Shown piece by piece: positions 52,209 to 64,000 of a DNA stretch of 64,000 nt (positions are counted from its first letter, which is position 1; each line of letters opens with the position of its first letter). Below the pieces are notes generated by a model, which saw only the letters and a program-made list of their open reading frames with translations, did no database searches and was not told the origin of the DNA. A program made the translations under genes and the position numbers. The DNA is from Clostridiales bacterium. Lineage in GTDB: Bacteria > Bacillota > Clostridia > Christensenellales > CAG-314. The stretch is taken from the NCBI GenBank assembly GCA_022508305.1, contig JAFLVM010000001.1, positions 437,347 to 501,346 on the forward strand. The letters are read 5' to 3'.

Positions 52209-53726
52209 TTATTTCTTAGATTTCTTGTCCTTTCTGCCTTTTTTGTCCGAAGGTTTGTCTTCCTCTTCAGCAGGGGTGTCGTTTGCGGAGTCGTCCGTAT
52301 TTTCGGCTGCTTCTTCCGCTTCGTCAAGACTCTTGGCGGATACAACTATTTCCGTAACGTTTGATTTGTCGGAATCGTTGTCCTCGTCATCTACAGGCTT
52401 GTTGCGAATGAAGATTTCCTCGTCCTTCGTGTTCTTGATTTCGCGCTTGATAAGTCCCTTGTTGATTAGTTCTACAATGCCTTCGTAGGGTACGTAGAAG
52501 TCTTCCGTTTCGTGTCTGATTCGCGTGATACCCTTTTGTTGCATAGCAATTTCCACGAGTTCAATTGCCTGTCTTACACGCTTGTAGTTCTTCAAGCGAA
52601 GCATTGCGGGCGTGTCCTCAGCGGAAGGAACGTTGGACGCGTCTTCCAAATTGTAAGCCGTGTTTTCATAGTCCGCTATATTTAAGGGAAGGAACAGACA
52701 CAGGGTCTTTCCGCGGAATGCAAGCTTTGCCACAACTTCCTTGCCGGACTTGAAGGTTTCGCGCTTCCAACTGATGCGAGCGTGCACCTTTTTGTAGGAA
52801 AGCAGTTCGTTTTTGAGCTCTGTGTACCAGTGCTTGAGTTCGTCGTCGGACTGAATAAATCTTGCGGTGAAACTACGGTCGTAGCGGAGTTTGCCTGCCT
52901 CGATAGATTCCTCGTCAACAATTATTGTCGTAGGTTCGGCGGGAGCTGCAACTACTTCTACGGGCTTTTCCACAATGCGCTCCACAATTACCACCTTTTC
53001 GGCAGGTTCTGCGGGTGCTTCCTCAATTACGACGGGAGCAGCCTCTTCCTTTACTTCGGGAGTTGGCTCTTCCACAACTACGGGTGCTTCCTTGACGGAC
53101 ACGGTGTAAATTGCCGTTTGGTCAGAGTATTTTACCGTTACAAACTTGATGCCTGCTTCGCTGAGGTCGGGTCTCAACACGTAGCAAACCTTTATGTCCT
53201 TGACGTTGCTCAATCTGTCGTACACGTCGTTGTCCACTACCGAGTAGGCAATGATAGTTTCGGAAAGGGGTTCGAGATTGTAGTTGGTGCGTACGAGCAA
53301 TCCGTCGCAGTTGAACTCTTCGCCAGCCGTAAACTCGCGCTGTACTACTCCTACGTCCAAAGATATACCAGTAAGTACTCTTTCTACAGGTTCTTTGCTC
53401 TTTTCAGGCTCGGGGGTAACCACAATTACTTGCGGTTGTTCTTGCGGCTCAGCCGCCGTAGTTGCAGCTGTATCTGCAACTACGGGCTCTGCCGTTTCTT
53501 TTTTCTTTTTGCCTTTTTCTTTTACGGGTTGTTCTTCAACAACTTTTTCCACAACCACTACTTCCTCTCTACGGGAGCGGCGGGTGCGCGCCAGAAGAAT
53601 GAAGAACATTATTATGCCGATGAACACTATTACTGCTTGAGCGGCATACAGCCAAAACAGGGTGTCGTTCAGGTCAAGGTCAAAGCCCCAACCGAATATT
53701 GAAATTACGTTTAATAATTTTAACAT
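52209..53726 (-). CDS. Membrane-anchored protein with Ig-like and unnamed Clostridial domain
   Basis: The 505-residue protein has an N-terminal membrane helix (about 22-46) and a long acidic/Val-Pro-Glu linker. An Ig-like domain follows (about 120-215; GISLDVGVVQREFTAGEEF), then a second linker and a conserved block (about 300-430) with SFTARFIQSDDELKHWY, ELLSYKKVHARISWKRE and GKTLCLFLPL. That block recurs in many Clostridial membrane proteins, often with zinc ribbons, but has no known function. The C-terminus is acidic and ends in a Lys-rich tail. The ATG at 53726 follows GAGG, 14 bp after the stop of the giant gene, so they share a transcript. Confidence 0.7.
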   Translation of the reverse strand: MLKLLNVISIFGWGFDLDLNDTLFWLYAAQAVIVFIGIIMFFILLARTRRSRREEVVVVEKVVEEQPVKEKGKKKKETAEPVVADTAATTAAEPQEQPQVIVVTPEPEKSKEPVERVLTGISLDVGVVQREFTAGEEFNCDGLLVRTNYNLEPLSETIIAYSVVDNDVYDRLSNVKDIKVCYVLRPDLSEAGIKFVTVKYSDQTAIYTVSVKEAPVVVEEPTPEVKEEAAPVVIEEAPAEPAEKVVIVERIVEKPVEVVAAPAEPTTIIVDEESIEAGKLRYDRSFTARFIQSDDELKHWYTELKNELLSYKKVHARISWKRETFKSGKEVVAKLAFRGKTLCLFLPLNIADYENTAYNLEDASNVPSAEDTPAMLRLKNYKRVRQAIELVEIAMQQKGITRIRHETEDFYVPYEGIVELINKGLIKREIKNTKDEEIFIRNKPVDDEDNDSDKSNVTEIVVSAKSLDEAEEAAENTDDSANDTPAEEEDKPSDKKGRKDKKSKK

Positions 53727-53740
53727 GTGTAGTACCTCGC

Positions 53741-56700
53741 TTATTTCTTCATTCTGCGGCTGATAATTGCTGCCACAGCTATTAGCGCGAACAATTGCGC
53801 TACAATTGCTACTGCCGCTACGCCGACTTCGTTGTCGCCTGCGTAGTGACCCAATGAGTCTCCGCATACCGTACAGAAACCGAACAGCCAGTTGTGACCG
53901 TGTACAATTTCCTCTCCGCATACGTCGCATACGCCGCGGTGGCTTTCGTAGCCGTCGCTTATCCATTCGGATACGCTGTGGCCTGCGTAGTCACTCTTAG
54001 CGCCGCATACCAAGCATTCGTGCCAGTGACCGTCTGCGTCAATAGTCCACTCGTCACTCCATACGTGGTCTTGTCTTACATCTGCGCCGCAGATCGTGCA
54101 AGTTCCGCTGTGAGTTTCGTCAAGGTTTGCTGTTGCGCTGTCAAGTACGTGTTCTGCTACGTCTCTACGCGCGCCGCATACGCTACACTCTTTCCAGTGA
54201 GATACGCCGTCGGACATCCAATCCTTAGACCAAACGTGGGTGTGCGCTCCGTTGCCTCCGTTGTCGAATTCGTAATTATCTACAAATCCTTCAAGTTTGC
54301 CCTTACCGTAACCGCCTGCTTGCGCTGCTTCTGTGGGTGTTGTTGCTTGACCTACCTTCTTCTTGGCTTGTTCGTAAGCTTCTTCGAGAGCTTGCTCGAC
54401 TTCTGCTTTCTGCTCGGGATCGAAGTCGTCTCTGCCCTCTAACGCGTCAAGCTCGTCTTGGTAAGCTTGCTCGATTTCTTGCAATGCTTTTTCCTTAGCT
54501 TTTGCCAACAAGCCGTCTTCGTCTACAGCGTCTGCTGCTTCACCCAGAGCGCTTTCGAATTCGTCCAAAGACTTCTCTGTGTCTTCGTAGCTGCCTTCGC
54601 CGTTCAGGAGATCTTCAAGTTTCTTTTGAAGGTCTTCAAGACGCTTCTTGAGGTCTTCAAGTTCTTTCTCTTCTTCGGGAGTCAAGGGATCCTTGCCTTC
54701 CAACTCTTCGATACGGTCTTCAATCTTCTTTTCAACTTCGCCGAATCTGTCTTCAAGCTCTTGTTGCTTTTCTTCGGAGAGTTGTCCGCAACGGGTACAA
54801 ATGCCGGTTGTTTCGTCGAATTCGTGTCCGAGCGCGTCAATTCTACCTGCGTTGCTCTTCCATTCGTCGAGATTTTCAATCTTGCTTGTGCCGTTAGCGT
54901 CTGAGAAGATGCTTGCGCACGTTGAGCAGATATAGTAAGCCTTGTGTCCGATTGCCGTACAGGTTGCAGGTACTTCCGCTACGCGTTGAAGCTTGTGCTC
55001 TTCGCTTGTAAGCTCCGTTCCGCAGGTGACGCAGTTCTTGACGTGCTTGCCGTCATTGCCTGCTTGCCATCCGCCGGCTACGTGTGCGCTTACCAGATAC
55101 TTGTTACCGCAATCTTCGCAGTACTTGTAGTGGTTGCCTGCTTCGTCAACTAACCACTTGCTGTCAGTGTGAGGAGCTTCGTTCTTGTGCATACCGCAGC
55201 TTTCACATTCATCCCAGTGAGAGTCGTTGTTGAAGTTGGGCTTCCACGTGTGGGTGTGACCAGTGCCGGGTGTGGTTGAAGGATCGTATTCGTCTACCAA
55301 TCTTTCAAGCTCTTTCGCGCCGTCAGCTGCTGCCTTGTCTGCTTCTTCCTTGCTGGTTGCTCTGTTGATGTTCTTGAGAGCATCTTCGTAAGCTTCTGCA
55401 AGTTGAGCAAGTAGATCGGACTGTTGCTCGGACGTGAGCTCGCCGTCTGTTACTGCTTTCTTCTGCTCGTCGTAAGCTTTGTTAAGCTCTTCTTGCGCTG
55501 CAAGCTTGTCTTGCGCCAAGTTGTCAACAGTTTCATCTGCTGCATCTCCCAAAGCGTCAAGTACGTCGCCGATAAAGTCGTCTAAGTCGCCGTCGATGTC
55601 GCCGCTTTGCAATGCGTCGAGAGCATCTTGCAATTGCTTAATCTTGTCTTCGAGTTCCTTGATCTTCTCATCGTCCTCGGGAGATTGAAGTTCGTCCTTC
55701 TTCTTTTCAAGGTCTTTGATGGCTTGATCAATGTCGTCTTCAAGTTCTTTCTTGAACTCTTCGTCCAGCGCGTCGCATACGGAGCAAACGTGCGTCGTTT
55801 CATTGAAGCTGTGCGCTTCCGTTACAGGCTCGCTACATACGGAGCAGGTGCCTTCGTGGTTAACGTTGTCCACCTTGGTTGCGCCGTCACCCATTGTGTG
55901 AGTAGCTCTGCCGTATTCTTGTTCGCAAGTTTCGCACTTCTTGAAGTGTTCGCCGTCTTCTGCCGTCCAACCGATGTCGCTCCATACGTGAGGCGTGTAG
56001 TCGTACTGCTCTCTGCAGACTGCGCATACGCTCCAGTGACCGTTCTCGTTGTGGTATGCAGAGTCGGTGAAGCTACCCTTTGCTACGTGAGCTACTGTTA
56101 CTTCTTTGCCGCATACTGCGCAAGGTCCGGTGTGACCGCTTTCGTTTGCAGAGCGTACAAGAGTTACGCTGTGAGCTTCGTGTTCCATTGCGTAGCCGCA
56201 TTCGTCCGTACATTCACGGTAATGCTTGCCTTCGCTGTCTTCCTTCCACTCACTCCAGGTGTGAGCTACTTCTTCAGTCGTTTCACACTTAGAGCAGGTT
56301 CTGCTGTGTTTCTCAGCGCCTGTGGTTGACCAGTCACGCCATTCGTGATCTGCAGTTACTGTCAATTCGCAGCCTTCTACTACGCAGGTGCCTTCGTGTT
56401 TGTCACCGGCAGGTGTCCACTCGTCGTCAACTACTGCGTTTGCGTCGTGTGTTTCCTTAGCGCCGCAGTCGTCGCAGGTTCTGACGTGTTTACCTTCGTC
56501 TTCGCCTTCGCCCTCTGCCCATGCGCCAAAGCTGTGTTCTACGGGTTCGGTTTCGTACTCGCAATCTTTACATTCTTGATGATGCTTTCCGTCGCCGTCA
56601 TCGTAGTACTTGCCTTCGAAGTCGTGAGCCTTCTTGACAGTTACGTTACAACCGTCTACTGCGCAGGTGCCTTCGTGGTGAACGCCGTCTTCGGAAGGTG

Positions 56701-59700
56701 TCCACTTGCCGTCAACTACTTCGTCAGCGTCGTGTGTTTCCTTAGCGCCACACTTGTCACAGGTTCTGACGTGTTTACCTTCGTCTTCGCCTTCGCCCTC
56801 TGCCCATGCGCCAAAGCTGTGTTCTTCAGTTACCTTCAGTTCGCAACCGTCTTCTGCGCAGGTGCCTTCGTGTGTGTTGGTACCTTCAACAGGTGTCCAG
56901 TCGGTGACGCCTTCAAGTTTAGGTTCGTGTGTTTCCTTCTTGCTGCAGTCGTCGCAGGTTCTGACGTGTTTACCTTCGTCTTCGCCTTCGCCTTCAGTCC
57001 AAGCGCTCCACTTGTGTCCTTCTTCTTCCGTCTTGTACTCGCAGTCTTCTGCCGTACATTCACGGTAATGCTTGCTGCCGTCTTCCGTCAGTTTCCATTC
57101 GCCCAGAGTGTGAGCCTTGGTTACTGTCAGTTCGCAGCCGTCGCCACCGTTACACGGACCTTCGTGCTCGCTACTGCCGGTTGAGGTCCAACTGTCTGCG
57201 TCTGCTACGTGTGTTTCTTTCTTGCCACAGTCTTCACAGGTTCTTACGTGCTTGCCGAGGTCTTCTGCAACACCTTCAGCCCAGTCGCTCCACTTGTGAG
57301 CAGCTTGCGCGCGTTCCATACCGCATTCGGTGCAGTGACCTGTGTGATTGTCGCCGTTATCCTTCCAAATAACACCGGTGTGTTGTCCGTGGTTCGTTGT
57401 GTATTCGCAACCCTCCACGTCGCACTTTTGATAGTGTCCGGTTGTTTCTTGTACCCAAATCAACTTGTGCGATTGTTCTACGTCTTCCTTGCTGCAGACG
57501 TCGCACTTACCTACGTGATTTGTTCCGTCTTTGTCTGTCCAAGAGCTTACTTGGTGAGCAGCGTATTCGTGTTTAGCGTCGCAACCTTGGTCTGCGTACT
57601 TACATGCGTACCAGTGACCGTCGTTGTCTGAGCTGTAATCCTCTGCCCATTCGTGAGCTTCTTCTACCGTCGTACCGCAATCGTCGCAATCACCTTGGTG
57701 TTTGTCGCCGACGTTGGTCCAACTCGTTACGTTAATTTCGTGCTCGTCGCGAGCTTCGCACTTACTGCACGTTCTGACGTGTTTACCGTCTTCCGTAGTC
57801 CAATCGCTCCAAGCGTGTCCTTCCGTTACGGTGTTGTCGCAGTACTTACACTCACCTGTGTGACCGATGTCATTTCCGCCGTTCGACCATTCATACTCGT
57901 GGTCTTGTTCGTTGCGGAACTTACAGGTGTCGCACACTTGATAGTGCTTGCCGTTGCTTCCGTCAGTCCATTGGTCTTCTGCCCATACGTGACTTACGTA
58001 GCTACTGTCATTCTTGGTGCCGCAAACGGTACATGTCAGCCAGTGACCGTCAACGTCGCCTGTGTAAAGCGTTGACCATACGTGCGCGCTCTCGTCGATT
58101 TCCGTTGCGCCTCTGCCTGTCTTCCAGTTTGCAAGAGCTTCGGCGTTACCGATGATATCGCTGCCGCTCTCGTCCGCGAAGTAGGTTCCGCAGGTTGCGC
58201 AGTACCAGTACTTGTTGTAACCGGGTGCTCTACACGTTGCGTCTTTGCCGGGCATTTCGGCAAGTTTGTGAGCTTCTGTCAATACGTAGCCGCATTCAGT
58301 ACACGTTCTTGCGTGGTTGCTGCCTTGTTCTACGTAGTCGCCGTAGCTGTGACCTGCAAACGCTGTTCTCTCACCGCAAACCGTACAAATCAGCCAGTGA
58401 CCTGTGCTGTCGTGGTTGTTAGCGTCGTGTAGGTCGCCGCTTGTTACGTGCGCCATCGTTACCGTAATTCCGCAAACGTCGCAAACACCTTGGTGAGTGT
58501 CGCCGACTTTGTAAGCTTTGGTAAGAACGTGAGCGCCACGGTTTGCTTTGTCTTCTACGCCGCAAAGCGTACATACTCTGTAGTGTTGTTGTGTTGCAGT
58601 GTCGTTAGACCAATCGCCCCAAACGTGACCGTTCGTGATGTCTTTACCTATTCTGCCTTCGCTTTCCAGCCATGTTTTCAGAGCTGTCTCGTTGCCGATT
58701 ACACCTGCACATTCTACGTCCTTGAAGTAGATTCCGCAATCTGCGCAGTAGTAATACGGTTTATAACCGAAATCTTTACAGGTTGCTGCCTTGCCTTCGT
58801 TTGCTACAAGGTGGTGTTCTTGTTCAACAACTCTGCCACCGTGCGCTTCGTCGGAACCGTACAAGCATTCAAGACAGTATCTGTAGTGAAGCTTGCCTGT
58901 GTCATGCGCCCAAGCGCTCCATTTGTGAGCAGCTTCGTTAATGCGATAGCCGCATTCACATTCGTACCAGTGGCTTGCTGCGTCGTAGGAGTACGCTAAC
59001 AAGTTTGAACTGTGCTCTACTTCTTCGGAGGTGTAGCCGCACTTTGTGCACAATTGATAGTGCTTGCTTACGCCTGTTTCTGGATCGGTTACGATTCTGT
59101 ATACGAGATATCCTTCGTGATCGCAAGCACCCGGTTCATATACGAGTCTGTCAAGACGTCCGTCTGTGTTATGCCAGATGTCAAACGCTTCTTGGTCACC
59201 GATTTCTTGCTTGCCCTCTGCATCCTTGTAGTAGATACCGCAAACAGTGCATTGATAGTACTCTAAGTAGCCGTACTCTTTGTCGGTGGGCTCGATTCTG
59301 TTGGTCTTTGTCAGAGCGTGAGCCGCTTCGTCGTACTTTTGACCGCATTCGCACTCTTTGTAGTGCTTGCCGTCGTTTGTCTTATATTCAATGTTATCCC
59401 AATCGTGAGCTACGTAGCTACCGGGTTTTTGCGCGCCACAGCCTTCGACTTTACATTCAATCCAATGACCGAATACGTCGTGTGAGAGCGTGTCGCTCCA
59501 TTCGTGACCGTTTACTGTGTCGTAGTCAATTCTACCTTCGTTTTGTTTCCAATTTTCGAGGTTAGCAATTGCTTTGAGACCGTCAACGTCTTCGAATACA
59601 CCTCCGCATTCGCAGGTGTAGTACGCCTTTACGCCGTACGCGTTACACTTAGCAGCTACTGCGGGAACGTAAGTCATTGCGTGTTGTTCGGTGTAGCTGA

Positions 59701-62700
59701 ATGCTGATGGGCATGTTCTACAACGCTTTGTGTGCGTGCCGTCTGCATTTACTACCCAATAAACGTTGTGTTCTTCTTTCTCTTGGCTCGGATCAATCGC
59801 GCCGCAAGTCGAACATTCATACCAGTGATAGTTCGCGTCGAAGTTTCTCTTCTCGTATTGATGTACGTGATCCTCAATCGCGCCGTCGGAACCTGCAGGT
59901 ATCAAACCGTCGGTTACGAGCCATTCGTCGATGTTGGGAATGATGTGTTCGTCAGCGCAATCGCTATTCGAATAGTAAGTGCCGCAAACCAAGCATTGCC
60001 AGTAAGCATAGTGACCGTTTTCCGATTGAGTTGCAGGTTGTTCTGCATACGCTCTCAAAGTGTGAGCAGCTCTTTCGTATTCTTGTCCGCAGGTTGCGCA
60101 CTTCTTGTAGTGACCGTCTGCGCTTACAATCCAATCGCCTGTGCTCCAGTCGTGATCTTCAAACTCTGCTTTAGCGTGGCAGATAGCGCAGTTGAACCAG
60201 TGACCGCTTACGTCGTGGTTGTTGTTGCCGTCGTAAGACTCGCCGTCTGTTACGTGGCTCATGGTTACCGTCAGTCCGCAAATTGTGCAGACGCCTTGGT
60301 GTCCGTTGCCAACAGGTGCAGCGCTTGTCAATACGTGCTTGTCTTGGAGGTCAGTAGCGCCGCATACGAGACATTCAACGTAGTGATTGCCCTTGCCGTC
60401 GTCCTTCCAACCGCTCCAAACGTGGCTCAAACCGTCGTTGGGGATCTTGCCAAGTCCGTCTTTCCAGCCTTCGAGGTCGGTTTCGTCACCAATCTTGGTG
60501 TAGTCAACCTTCGAGAAGTAGGTGTCGCAGTCTTTGCAGTAGAAGTAAGATTCGAAACCTGCGTTGCTGCAGTCAGGAGCTTGACCTGCTACTGCAACGA
60601 GCTTGTGTTCTTCTTCCAATGCTACGTAACCGCATACGCTACAAGTCTTGACGTGTGTTGCGGGATTTGCGCCGTCATCAACCGTCCAAGCGCCGAGCTT
60701 GTGCTCTTCGCCTTCGCGATAGCCGCACTTCGTACATTGCTTGTAGTGGCTTACAGCGTCCTTAATCATTTCGTCGTAAGTATGCAGTCCGTCGCTAGGA
60801 TCATCGTATACTTTGACGTCGCCGCAGATTGTACACTCTTCGTAGTGAGAAGCGCTACCTTCGTAGTATCTGTACACGTATGAGTGGTTGTTGTCTTCGC
60901 ACGGATCTTCCGTGTAAGAATCGAGTTTCTTGAGCAAACCGCCGTTTTCGTCGATCTTCCAAGCGTTCAAATCAGCGATACGAACGTCGTTTTCGTCATA
61001 GGCTTGACCGCAAAGAACGCACAGCTTGTAAGCCTTGCAGCCGTTAGCTTCGGTTGTAGCCTTGACTTCGTCGAAGTATTGGAATGCGTGCTCTCTTTCG
61101 TCGTACTTTTCTTTACAGTCGGGACATTCCTTCCAATGTTTGCCACTTGCATCGGCAGTTTCGTCACACTTGTAGGAAATCTTGTTCCAATCGTGAGTTA
61201 CGTAACTACCGGGTTGTACCGTGTGACATTCCGAGCACTCTTTCCAGTGAGCAACCACGTTGTGTTTGTCTTCGTATACGTGACCGTTGACTGTGTCGAG
61301 TTCGATTCTGCCTGCGCCCTCCGTTGTACGCCACGTGTCAAGTTCCATAGTGATTTGGATGAGACCGTTAACGTCCTCGAAGTTAGCTTCGCATTCGCTG
61401 CAGGTATAGGATGCCTTGTAGCCGTACTCTCCACAAGTAGCTACCTTGCCTTTGTTATACGTCATTGTGTGAGCTTCGGAAATGCTGTAGTCGCATTCGT
61501 CGCAGCTCCATTCGTGCTTGCCGTCAGCCGTTACAGTCCAGCGGATTGCGCTGTGATCGTTTTCTTCTTGACGGTCGCCGCAAAGCGAACATTCTTGCCA
61601 GTGTTGTTTTGAATCGAATTTGTTTTCGTAACTGTGAGAGCATTCGCCTTCGAGTTGCTCAAGGTAACCTTCGCCTGTCTTCCAATCTTCGGGATCGATA
61701 GCGTTGATACCTTCGCTGTCGGAGTAGGATGCTCCGCAGTCAGAACAGGTGTAGAAGGTCTTGTAACCGTCGTGTTCCGTCGTAGCGGGTTTGGAATCAG
61801 CCACCATGTCGTGAGCCGACTCGCCGTAAACCTGTCCGCAGTCGGGACATACCTTGTAGTGAGTGCCGTTGTCGCCGGGTACGAATGAACTGTCTGTGTG
61901 ACTAGCAAAGTTGATTTTTTCGCCGCACACTTCGCAACTCGTCCAGTGACCGCTTGCGTCGTGGTTACCTTCGTCACGTACGTCGCCGCCTTTGCTGTGA
62001 GGCATTTCTACAAGCAGTCCGCAGCCTTCGCAGTAACCCTTGTGGTTGTTGGAGTTTTCAACAGCTGTTGCGCTTGTTACAGCGTGTACACCACGGTTAA
62101 CTGTGTCTTCAATGTTGCAAAGGGTACAATGTCTGTAGTGTTCGTGCGTGTAGGTGTCGTCCTTCCATTCGCCCCAAACGTGACCGTAAGTGGAGTCGAT
62201 AGGCAGACGTCCGCCATTCTCACTGACGTCGGTTGCAAGCCACAAATCGATGTTTTCGATTTCTTTCATACCGTCTACGTCAGAGAAGTACTTGTTACAG
62301 CCTACGCACTTGTAGTATTCAAGCGTACCGTAGGAGTTACAGGTGCTGTCTACGCGAGCGATAGTTTCGAGAGTGTGAAGTTGTCCGTTACGAGCGCCAC
62401 ATTCGCGGCAGACCTCGAAGTGAGAACCGTTACCGGATTCCAAATCCGTGTTCCAAACGTGATCTTGCTTTTCAAGCGCTTGGTCACAGTATTGGCAAAC
62501 CTTCCAGTGTCCGGTAGCGTCGGAGTGTTCTACAGTGTAAGTCGCGTCATCAGCTATGCTGTGGTCTTGCTTAAATTGATTCATGCAGACCGAGCAGTAA
62601 GCCATGTGAGTTTCACTACCGTTGCTGTGGAAGTCCATACCAACGGCAGCCTTGTGCGCTTCAATGTTTTGACGAGCGTTACACTTTGAACATTCTTGCC

Positions 62701-64000
62701 AGTGGTTGGTGTTGTCGAAGTTGTCAAACCAAACGTGTTGGTGACCGTCGTCAGGATTGGAACCGAATTCATAGTTTTCAATGAAGTGTTCCATCTCGTA
62801 CACGCCTTCGTCGCCTGCTTGGATTGCATCGTCTACGTTTGATGTGTTTCTAATTCTCTTTTGATCTTCTTCGTAAGCTTTTTTCAAAGCTTCTCTGATT
62901 TCCTCTTTTTGCTCTGCGGTGAATTCGTCTTCGCCACGTCCGTCGAGGTCTTCTAAAGCATCTTCGTAAGCTTGTCTAAGTTTCTCCAAAGCTTCCTGTT
63001 GAGCCGTAGCCAAAGGACCGTCCTTGTCAACTTCCAAAGCTGCTTTTGCAAGGGCAGCGTTGAGTTCGTCCATAGCTTCCTCAATAGCTTGAGGATCCTT
63101 GCTGTTTTCTACGCTCTTCAGGTTGTTCCAAGCGTCGTTGATCTCGTCTGTTAACGCCTTCTTTCTTGATTCGTCAAGCGAGCTGTCCGCGACCTTTCCA
63201 AGAACCTCGTCCTTTCTCACTTCAGCTGCGTCAACTGCTTCTTTGCACTCGCCGCAAACCGAGCAGATGTGGTTAGCGCTCCAGGTGTGTTCGGGATTGA
63301 TCTTACCTGCGCCTTGCTTCCAATTGAGCAGATCGCCTGTGATAACTGACTTAGCCTTGCTGTCTGAGAAGTAGTTGTTACAAACTTCGCAGTGCCAGTA
63401 AGCCTTTACGCCGGGGATACCGGTTTTGCAGTCTGCAGGTTGTTCCGAGGTCTCAGTCAAAACGTGGTTTTCACTGTGAATTTGACCGCAGTCGGGACAC
63501 TCTTGATAGTGGAGACCGTTGACACTGTCAACAAGCCAACTTCCGCTCCAAGTGTGGATAACAACTTTGTAATTGTTTTCGCAGACGGAGCAAACAAGCC
63601 AGTGACCTGTGTTGTTGTGGTTGTCAGCGTTTCTGTAGTCGTTACCGTTAGAAGTGTGATTTTCGGTGACGGACTTTTCACAGATGTCGCAAGTCTTTAC
63701 GTGAACTGTGTCGAAGGACTCGTATGCGCCCCATTCGTGCGTACTGTATTCTCTACGCTCGTTGCAGCCGTTCAAGCATGCGTACCAGTGACCGTTGTCG
63801 TCGGTTGTGTAATCTGTAGCCCAATTGTGTACGTGATCTTCACCGCCGGAAACGGGAGGTTCTACCGCTTCGATGATGTCGTAGCCTTCGCTGAGTTTGT
63901 CGCCTACTTCTTCTACGGATGTAGCAAGTTCAACGCCTCTCTTAGCCTCTGCGAGAGCTTCGTCCACCATTTCTTCGAATTTGGCGATGTCGCTGTCGCT
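53741..64000 (-). CDS. Giant membrane-anchored His/Cys repeat protein (N-terminus outside window)
   Basis: The frame is open from the right edge (3,419 codons visible). It contains about 80 modules of the form H-x3-C-x2-C-G-x(5-10)-H, each 25-45 residues, like HYKVCPDCGQVYGESAH; a few use C-x3-C, C-x4-C or C-x-C. A recurring variant reads YY-x-C-x2-C-x2-YFSD. Three complete helical, Asp/Glu/Lys-rich domains of about 170 residues interrupt the modules (near 62740-63246, 55250-55770 and 54260-54780), and the end of a fourth is at the right edge. Near the C-terminus is a membrane helix (VAAVAIVAQLFALIAVAAII) and the tail SRRMKK; there is no LPXTG motif. The four-ligand modules suggest zinc binding and a cell-surface place, by inference. 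Confidence 0.8.
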   Translation of the reverse strand, partial: SDSDIAKFEEMVDEALAEAKRGVELATSVEEVGDKLSEGYDIIEAVEPPVSGGEDHVHNWATDYTTDDNGHWYACLNGCNERREYSTHEWGAYESFDTVHVKTCDICEKSVTENHTSNGNDYRNADNHNNTGHWLVCSVCENNYKVVIHTWSGSWLVDSVNGLHYQECPDCGQIHSENHVLTETSEQPADCKTGIPGVKAYWHCEVCNNYFSDSKAKSVITGDLLNWKQGAGKINPEHTWSANHICSVCGECKEAVDAAEVRKDEVLGKVADSSLDESRKKALTDEINDAWNNLKSVENSKDPQAIEEAMDELNAALAKAALEVDKDGPLATAQQEALEKLRQAYEDALEDLDGRGEDEFTAEQKEEIREALKKAYEEDQKRIRNTSNVDDAIQAGDEGVYEMEHFIENYEFGSNPDDGHQHVWFDNFDNTNHWQECSKCNARQNIEAHKAAVGMDFHSNGSETHMAYCSVCMNQFKQDHSIADDATYTVEHSDATGHWKVCQYCDQALEKQDHVWNTDLESGNGSHFEVCRECGARNGQLHTLETIARVDSTCNSYGTLEYYKCVGCNKYFSDVDGMKEIENIDLWLATDVSENGGRLPIDSTYGHVWGEWKDDTYTHEHYRHCTLCNIEDTVNRGVHAVTSATAVENSNNHKGYCEGCGLLVEMPHSKGGDVRDEGNHDASGHWTSCEVCGEKINFASHTDSSFVPGDNGTHYKVCPDCGQVYGESAHDMVADSKPATTEHDGYKTFYTCSDCGASYSDSEGINAIDPEDWKTGEGYLEQLEGECSHSYENKFDSKQHWQECSLCGDRQEENDHSAIRWTVTADGKHEWSCDECDYSISEAHTMTYNKGKVATCGEYGYKASYTCSECEANFEDVNGLIQITMELDTWRTTEGAGRIELDTVNGHVYEDKHNVVAHWKECSECHTVQPGSYVTHDWNKISYKCDETADASGKHWKECPDCKEKYDEREHAFQYFDEVKATTEANGCKAYKLCVLCGQAYDENDVRIADLNAWKIDENGGLLKKLDSYTEDPCEDNNHSYVYRYYEGSASHYEECTICGDVKVYDDPSDGLHTYDEMIKDAVSHYKQCTKCGYREGEEHKLGAWTVDDGANPATHVKTCSVCGYVALEEEHKLVAVAGQAPDCSNAGFESYFYCKDCDTYFSKVDYTKIGDETDLEGWKDGLGKIPNDGLSHVWSGWKDDGKGNHYVECLVCGATDLQDKHVLTSAAPVGNGHQGVCTICGLTVTMSHVTDGESYDGNNNHDVSGHWFNCAICHAKAEFEDHDWSTGDWIVSADGHYKKCATCGQEYERAAHTLRAYAEQPATQSENGHYAYWQCLVCGTYYSNSDCADEHIIPNIDEWLVTDGLIPAGSDGAIEDHVHQYEKRNFDANYHWYECSTCGAIDPSQEKEEHNVYWVVNADGTHTKRCRTCPSAFSYTEQHAMTYVPAVAAKCNAYGVKAYYTCECGGVFEDVDGLKAIANLENWKQNEGRIDYDTVNGHEWSDTLSHDVFGHWIECKVEGCGAQKPGSYVAHDWDNIEYKTNDGKHYKECECGQKYDEAAHALTKTNRIEPTDKEYGYLEYYQCTVCGIYYKDAEGKQEIGDQEAFDIWHNTDGRLDRLVYEPGACDHEGYLVYRIVTDPETGVSKHYQLCTKCGYTSEEVEHSSNLLAYSYDAASHWYECECGYRINEAAHKWSAWAHDTGKLHYRYCLECLYGSDEAHGGRVVEQEHHLVANEGKAATCKDFGYKPYYYCADCGIYFKDVECAGVIGNETALKTWLESEGRIGKDITNGHVWGDWSNDTATQQHYRVCTLCGVEDKANRGAHVLTKAYKVGDTHQGVCDVCGITVTMAHVTSGDLHDANNHDSTGHWLICTVCGERTAFAGHSYGDYVEQGSNHARTCTECGYVLTEAHKLAEMPGKDATCRAPGYNKYWYCATCGTYFADESGSDIIGNAEALANWKTGRGATEIDESAHVWSTLYTGDVDGHWLTCTVCGTKNDSSYVSHVWAEDQWTDGSNGKHYQVCDTCKFRNEQDHEYEWSNGGNDIGHTGECKYCDNTVTEGHAWSDWTTEDGKHVRTCSKCEARDEHEINVTSWTNVGDKHQGDCDDCGTTVEEAHEWAEDYSSDNDGHWYACKYADQGCDAKHEYAAHQVSSWTDKDGTNHVGKCDVCSKEDVEQSHKLIWVQETTGHYQKCDVEGCEYTTNHGQHTGVIWKDNGDNHTGHCTECGMERAQAAHKWSDWAEGVAEDLGKHVRTCEDCGKKETHVADADSWTSTGSSEHEGPCNGGDGCELTVTKAHTLGEWKLTEDGSKHYRECTAEDCEYKTEEEGHKWSAWTEGEGEDEGKHVRTCDDCSKKETHEPKLEGVTDWTPVEGTNTHEGTCAEDGCELKVTEEHSFGAWAEGEGEDEGKHVRTCDKCGAKETHDADEVVDGKWTPSEDGVHHEGTCAVDGCNVTVKKAHDFEGKYYDDGDGKHHQECKDCEYETEPVEHSFGAWAEGEGEDEGKHVRTCDDCGAKETHDANAVVDDEWTPAGDKHEGTCVVEGCELTVTADHEWRDWSTTGAEKHSRTCSKCETTEEVAHTWSEWKEDSEGKHYRECTDECGYAMEHEAHSVTLVRSANESGHTGPCAVCGKEVTVAHVAKGSFTDSAYHNENGHWSVCAVCREQYDYTPHVWSDIGWTAEDGEHFKKCETCEQEYGRATHTMGDGATKVDNVNHEGTCSVCSEPVTEAHSFNETTHVCSVCDALDEEFKKELEDDIDQAIKDLEKKKDELQSPEDDEKIKELEDKIKQLQDALDALQSGDIDGDLDDFIGDVLDALGDAADETVDNLAQDKLAAQEELNKAYDEQKKAVTDGELTSEQQSDLLAQLAEAYEDALKNINRATSKEEADKAAADGAKELERLVDEYDPSTTPGTGHTHTWKPNFNNDSHWDECESCGMHKNEAPHTDSKWLVDEAGNHYKYCEDCGNKYLVSAHVAGGWQAGNDGKHVKNCVTCGTELTSEEHKLQRVAEVPATCTAIGHKAYYICSTCASIFSDANGTSKIENLDEWKSNAGRIDALGHEFDETTGICTRCGQLSEEKQQELEDRFGEVEKKIEDRIEELEGKDPLTPEEEKELEDLKKRLEDLQKKLEDLLNGEGSYEDTEKSLDEFESALGEAADAVDEDGLLAKAKEKALQEIEQAYQDELDALEGRDDFDPEQKAEVEQALEEAYEQAKKKVGQATTPTEAAQAGGYGKGKLEGFVDNYEFDNGGNGAHTHVWSKDWMSDGVSHWKECSVCGARRDVAEHVLDSATANLDETHSGTCTICGADVRQDHVWSDEWTIDADGHWHECLVCGAKSDYAGHSVSEWISDGYESHRGVCDVCGEEIVHGHNWLFGFCTVCGDSLGHYAGDNEVGVAAVAIVAQLFALIAVAAIISRRMKK
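56342..57060 (-). repeat. Near-identical tandem duplications inside the giant gene
   Basis: The stretch encoding GEGEDEGKHVRTCDDCGAK and KETHDA-type continuation occurs near 56430-56540 and again near 56725-56830, 285 bp (95 codons) apart, with very few base changes; a third, more diverged copy is near 56915-57010. This points to recent unequal crossing-over. Confidence 0.75.

Follow-up and report, generated by a model that had tools for sequence, protein, structure and literature searches.

What kind of protein carries dozens of short histidine- and cysteine-rich units in one chain, and what could these units do? The question is raised by a reading frame on the minus strand at 53741..64000 of a 64,000-nucleotide stretch of DNA from a Clostridiales bacterium (the window). 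A preliminary description had given this frame more than 3,400 codons. The window indeed holds 3419, but the frame is open at the window edge, and these codons represent only the C-terminal half (residues 3028-6446) of a surface protein of 6446 amino acids. The whole gene, here called the giant, lies at G000:C1:491087-510427, where G000 denotes its own genome (1.47 Mb in 46 contigs). The open frame comprises 6475 codons, and a likely ATG start preceded by GAGGAG leads to the length of 6446 residues. Inspection by eye revealed a hydrophobic signal peptide at the N-terminus. The head consists of about 1800 Gly-rich, beta-helix-like residues with GGGVYV/NMSGG repeats; Pectate_lyase_5 reached 15.2 bits on it (E 0.025), below the Pfam cut-off of 24.3. 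The head is probably a beta-helix. His/Cys units extend from residue 1922 onward and are broken up by five inserts. At the C-terminus, the membrane helix proposed earlier is present as a hydrophobic stretch with a mid-helix Gln and a basic tail, RRMKK (53744..53827, minus strand). Many long open frames, up to 383 codons, run antisense to the giant on the plus strand (53894-64000), probably as an effect of codon use.

The part of the giant in the window contains 180 cysteines and 190 histidines. We counted 81 CxxC-type knuckles, which take up 162 of the 180 cysteines; 66 of the 81 have a His at position -4. Copies of the strict motif H-x3-C-x2-C-x(5-10)-H number 52, and 63 are obtained when it is relaxed to C-x2-5-C and x3-14. 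The original figure of about 80 copies is thus correct for all CxxC-type units and too high for the strict motif. The whole giant has 106 knuckles. Because the knuckle at residue 1922, at the head junction, breaks the four-ligand rule described below, the total is given as about 105 units. A chance origin of the motif was rejected, since the whole giant contains H-x3-C-x2-C 67 times, whereas 200 shuffles of its residues averaged 0.37 copies and never exceeded 3.

Two types of units were distinguished. A units of about 30 residues consist of a His, 9-24 residues, H-x3-C-x2-C and a further His. B units of about 60 residues contain a His, the Cys of an ATC-like motif, the CxxC and a longer tail, and a common order is A-A-A-A-B. 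The same kind of unit stalk occurs in a paralogue of 2129 amino acids in the same genome (L013; G000:C23:32343-38732). In every one of the 119 A units of these two proteins, one His precedes by 9-24 residues and another follows after 4-14. Histidines likewise flank both sides in 197 of 211 A units in a set of nine proteins, seven of which belong to three further genomes in the genus. When the strict A units within the window, 54 in number, were compared from -8 to +13, only Gly at +4 (frequency 0.59) exceeded 0.43 apart from the three ligands used for selection. Tandem Repeats Finder returned 3 short rows for 53700-64000; the units are therefore not identical copies of recent date, and recent tandem duplication of DNA was discarded as their source.

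Read from the N-terminal side, the minus strand of the window begins with the C-terminal piece of another insert that the window edge truncates (63848..64000; insert ends are approximate throughout). It is followed by an A-A-A-A-B array with a cap (63254..63835, about residues 3083-3276), an insert (62762..63244) and the main array (55775..62743, about residues 3447-5769). The next insert, with the best DUF1542 stretch (55277..55768), leads to an A-A-A-B array with a cap (54788..55258, about residues 5942-6098), and another insert (54257..54781) to the last array, four A units and a cap ahead of the membrane helix (53864..54244, about residues 6280-6406). Arrays end in CxxC caps, and an extra His is present at the start of many of them. 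From knuckle to knuckle the five inserts measure 177-204 residues, and all of them look helical by eye. DUF1542 matched above its cut-off of 24.3 bits in inserts only, with two stretches in the window part (E 1.8e-11) and one upstream (E 6.8e-8); scores were 44.3 and 32.9 bits. These matches bear out the helical, Asp/Glu-rich spacers noted before.

To account for the ligands, the 106 knuckles of the giant and the 51 of the paralogue were considered and the last site of each protein was excluded, leaving 155 sites with a following knuckle. A boundary His was present in 155/155 sites. The usual fourth ligand was a His at -4 or -5 in 126 sites and an upstream Cys in 15. The remaining 14 sites have neither, and 13 of them carry a His or Cys at -2 of the first His of the next unit, so that 154 of the 155 sites have a fourth candidate. 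This residue occurs in only 2 of the 141 other sites (p 5e-16, too small a value because the rule was formulated with the data already in view, and the units are related by duplication). An example is the B unit at 59855..60064 on the minus strand (about residues 4340-4409), which has ATQ for ATC and is followed by a unit beginning D-H-V-H. Control offsets -1 and -3 to -7 had no effect, -8 tended weakly in the opposite direction (p 0.02), and the corresponding position at the unit's own start gave 0/14 versus 14/141, again no effect.

The swap was less sharply placed in other proteins. With the fixed -2 definition, it was not significant in seven proteins of the genus (p 0.37) and weaker in a broad set (p 5e-4). 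A looser test, in which a His at -2 counted as well as any free Cys ahead of the next first His, gave 15/18 versus 8/109 in the genus proteins and 28/36 versus 61/216 in the broad set, with the reservation that longer loops leave more space for a chance Cys. Only 12 of 534 units in the three sets together were left without a fourth candidate. The broad set comprised 11 reading frames, nine filtered from 81 loci and two of G022; the latter genome belongs to the same genus as the giant, and the module proteins L142-L154 lie outside this test. An exchange of His and Cys at one defined place is predicted by a metal site and not by a disulfide. Judged from these residue patterns, the data support a four-ligand metal site in each unit, and the ligand types make Zn2+ the most likely metal. 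Sites of the haem, Rieske and rubredoxin types were provisionally discounted because of their spacing.

Two registers of the site are compatible with the units. In arrays from 74 reading frames, not all of them checked as real genes, the first A unit kept its own first His in all but one of 59 cases, even where no CxxC precedes it, and the last A unit was followed by a downstream His in 24 of 30. Boundary units therefore favour a unit's own first His, whereas the swaps favour the first His of the next unit. Because of this disagreement, the swap was not taken as proof of a site at the interface to the next unit, and both registers were kept. The pairing of His, Cys, Cys and next His suggested initially is allowed by the sequence, but as only one of the two registers. 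The total number of sites is equal under either, and whether the helical domains would be inserts within a metal site depends on the register chosen.

No family of Pfam or NCBIfam matched the units in either the giant or the paralogue. The zf-C2H2_jaz model passed its Pfam cut-off (24.7 versus 22.6 bits) in a distant relative, L050, but not in the giant. Among sequences of the PDB, by far the best match was chain A of 9QA6, the IgA peptidase (IgAse, also ThomasA) of Thomasclavelia ramosa, in a profile search that led to its putative zinc-binding domains. Profiles A2 and A3 matched 9qa6_A in three stretches each (E 5.2e-14 and 4.5e-17), and a single array of the window was sufficient for E 7e-9. 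Designed and natural zinc fingers gave weaker profile matches (E 9e-7 and beyond), which are probably driven by Cys/His spacing. The open-access literature searched yielded nothing on such repeats besides two papers on IgAse (PMC12237041, PMC12402451).

According to the accessible portions of these papers, the zinc domains of IgAse are modelled as elongated, with 2His/2Cys sites, and are called putative pending validation (PLoS Pathogens, PMC12237041). Site 4 is given there as 2His/2Cys and does not obviously use the ATC Cys. Parts of the second paper, in the EMBO Journal, describe a solution shape that departs from the AlphaFold3 arrangement and label the N-terminal domain DUF6273 (PMC12402451). 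The maximum dimension of IgAse is stated as 250 Å with the zinc-domain region, including an Ig-like domain in between, and 106 Å without it. The available text of neither paper reports a metal measurement.

The preliminary description had also considered a redox-labile stalk. Such a stalk might have CxxC pairs that form disulfides, giving a thiol-rich ladder whose stiffness changes with the redox state. Every unit does offer a CxxC, and IgAse required a reducing agent for monodispersity and eluted heterogeneously without it, as far as the accessible sections describe (PMC12237041). In the structures or models of IgAse, however, no disulfides were observed despite 24 cysteines (PMC12237041), and the fourth position of our units exchanges His and Cys. 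Furthermore, the three thiol-oxidation families searched, VKOR, Thioredoxin_4 and DSBA, were found in 0/25 genomes of the genus, compared with 3/14, 9/14 and 8/14 control genomes, respectively. Their absence argues against disulfides, and we consider a redox stalk very improbable. Ligand statistics, the match to the putative IgAse zinc domains and the lack of these oxidation families jointly back the earlier proposal of metal-binding units; of the redox-labile stalk, the long stalk is retained and the redox part is not.

The paralogue carries DUF6273 (27.2 bits versus a cut-off of 23.5) where the giant has its beta-helix-like head, and this different head on the same kind of units supports a role of the units as a stalk. 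Within the genome, the anchor sequence of the giant matches only itself and the paralogue, with helices 80% identical. A partner gene of 505 amino acids begins 14 bp downstream of the giant (52209..53726, minus strand) and encodes one hydrophobic helix with a mid-helix Gln (approximately 53586..53657, minus strand). Basic residues after this helix suggest that the long C-terminal part is probably cytoplasmic. The partner of the paralogue (C23:38747-40195) likewise lies 14 bp downstream, and the two partners are 66% identical. No Pfam model matched the partner family above cut-off; beyond the helix, its members contain stretches that recur in multi-copy proteins.

Partner-like domains were found in 47 of 101 genomes, the own one included. 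Since such proteins often stand behind anchored proteins that have no His/Cys units, the partner goes with the anchor and not with the unit. Eight module proteins combine a C-terminal helix with at least four A units, and in seven of them a partner is the next gene: the two of the own genome, two of L135, L136, L137 and L138, where a gap of N separates units and anchor in L138 and the partner of one L135 unit is cut at a contig end. The exception is L141 (1082 amino acids). Pairing of protein and partner is seen in G023 and G024. A further six module proteins from the genus, for which the downstream gene is visible, lack an adjacent partner; five have lipoprotein-like starts and one is cut at its start. 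L138 (G024:C23) has 3958 open codons, and its likely anchor and partner helices are without Gln.

The mid-helix Gln tends to occur in both helices or in neither. A script scored 18 anchor/partner pairs as Gln in both (8), in neither (8) or in the anchor only (2; p 0.001), and 26 further partner hits yielded no helix pair. By eye, all 18 pairs were concordant (10 both, 8 neither, 0 anchor only), as the partner Gln of the two anchor-only cases, L159 and L161, lies one residue beyond the scored span. In two "neither" cases, L036 and L042, the upstream helix has a Gln at its far end, also beyond the span. As the helix pairs are related to each other, this co-variation is suggestive and not proof. 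Sortase anchoring was rejected for the giant: PF04203 was detected in 1 of 25 genomes of the genus and not in the own genome, and no LPXTG was seen by eye ahead of the C-terminal helix.

The B-unit pattern was confirmed at 166 loci in named genomes. By their titles, the 80 loci listed come mostly from gut and rumen Bacillota, comprising Clostridia, Lachnospiraceae, Oscillospiraceae, Erysipelotrichaceae and other Bacillota, together with single records labelled Prevotella, Dehalococcoidales and Atopobiaceae, which could stem from faulty binning. Dorea phocaeensis and Blautia glucerasea are examples of named isolates that match the B-unit pattern. The gut setting of the bacterium is taken from these relatives. 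Unit arrays are present in 38 of the 101 genomes around and including the own one. The own genome has three more frames with some His/Cys units (C1:878182, C12:122156 and C12:130010), two of them lipoprotein-like. A lipoprotein-like frame in G022:C50 (L139, L140) is, with 7474 codons, longer than the giant; it has 74 CxxC in its first 5858 codons and no anchor helix by eye, and the 1.1 kb read behind it contains no partner gene. A phage origin was dismissed, as a 657-residue piece had no match in 50,697 phage records and profile A3 hit 1 locus in IMG/VR.

Metal storage or withholding, with the chain as a zinc sink at the surface, had been another early suggestion. By site count, the part in the window could hold about 80 ions and the whole chain about 105; the earlier number of 80 ions agrees with the 81 sites in the window and is a count of sites. 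Beyond this count we found no support for storage. The architecture is that of a modular stalk with differing heads, helical inserts, an anchor and a partner gene, and the number of CxxC sites in relatives varies between a few and dozens. Sites of two to three Cys and one to two His are typical structural sites, and the candidate ligand sets of the units are of this type. A storage role thus appears highly unlikely.

Zinc could also join chains instead of folding them. Stalks of neighbouring cells would then be connected by bridging zinc, as in staphylococcal Aap, for which the available part of the literature describes zinc-dependent homophilic adhesion through the B-repeats. The CxxC caps and the extra His at array starts could complete such sites between chains. 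Against this, 522 of 534 units have all four candidate ligands in one chain, and the Pfam scans returned no G5 domain in the giant or paralogue; we regard zinc-dependent adhesion between cells as unlikely. We are similarly doubtful about units that act as protein- or glycan-binding repeats of Velcro-like adhesins, with a candidate metal that merely folds them. The units vary freely outside the ligands, so each could show a different surface, but the two zinc domains of IgAse are, in the accessible parts of both reports, dispensable for cleavage and located in an extended tail (PMC12237041, PMC12402451).

Taken together, we consider it reasonably probable that the giant is a very long, membrane-anchored surface stalk of metal-held units, which presents a head domain and acts with a partner. 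Each of the approximately 105 units would hold one metal ion, most likely Zn2+, by its CxxC, the unit-boundary His and a fourth ligand that can be exchanged; this may be the His at -4, a Cys upstream, or a His/Cys lying at -2 of the first His in the next unit. The metal would substitute for a hydrophobic core or a disulfide and stiffen the chain. If the 110 Å per 129 residues of the IgAse model apply, the portion made of units would measure about 320 nm. The stalk would carry its head, the probable beta-helix in the giant and DUF6273 in the paralogue, outward, where the architecture suggests binding to a surface or another cell. In the membrane it would be held together with the co-encoded partner, whose helix may pair with the anchor helix and which could report to the cytoplasm. 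An extension of this model is a line for sensing force or metal, in which the units set the stiffness, the helices pair via buried Gln and the partner reports tension or zinc. This is a tentative idea with a rather low probability.

If one structural metal folds each unit, some anaerobic gut bacteria would have a means of building very long extracellular fibres free of disulfides, and zinc limitation could soften them. If the sensing line were true, there would be a broader class of metal-stapled stalks that replace disulfide or isopeptide stalks in strictly anaerobic gut bacteria. The swap rule offers a simple and testable predictor of sites, and the presence of a co-encoded partner hints at a connection between fibre and cell interior. 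The 166 confirmed loci stand next to the lack of any Pfam or NCBIfam model for the units of giant and paralogue.

Among known systems, IgAse is closest. By sequence, its ZBD1 and ZBD2 (UniProt Q9AES2) are of the same unit type as the giant and have predicted 2His/2Cys sites; in our own number mapping, subdomain I resembles the B unit and subdomains II and III the A units. Like the giant, IgAse is secreted and has a C-terminal membrane segment, and it shares the N-terminal DUF6273 with the paralogue. It combines five such subdomains with a peptidase domain of the M64 type and a sortase motif, whereas the giant has about 105 units, and neither the giant nor the paralogue matched the M64 catalytic domain in the Pfam scans. 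Helical inserts, a partner gene and a genome without a sortase match further distinguish the giant. In extreme length and number of small repeats, it resembles a Mobiluncus mulieris adhesin of 7651 amino acids with 51 Ig-like domains; as far as the available description goes, those domains have covalent cross-links where the giant has candidate metal sites. Staphylococcal Aap/SasG, with G5-E repeats, is likewise a long surface protein with a role for zinc, but in the accessible accounts zinc joins chains, whereas the giant has its candidate ligands within one chain. Helical surface proteins of the Ebh/Embp type, with DUF1542 and FIVAR, have DUF1542 helices in common with the inserts of the giant; there, helical bundles form the stalk, while here they interrupt it.
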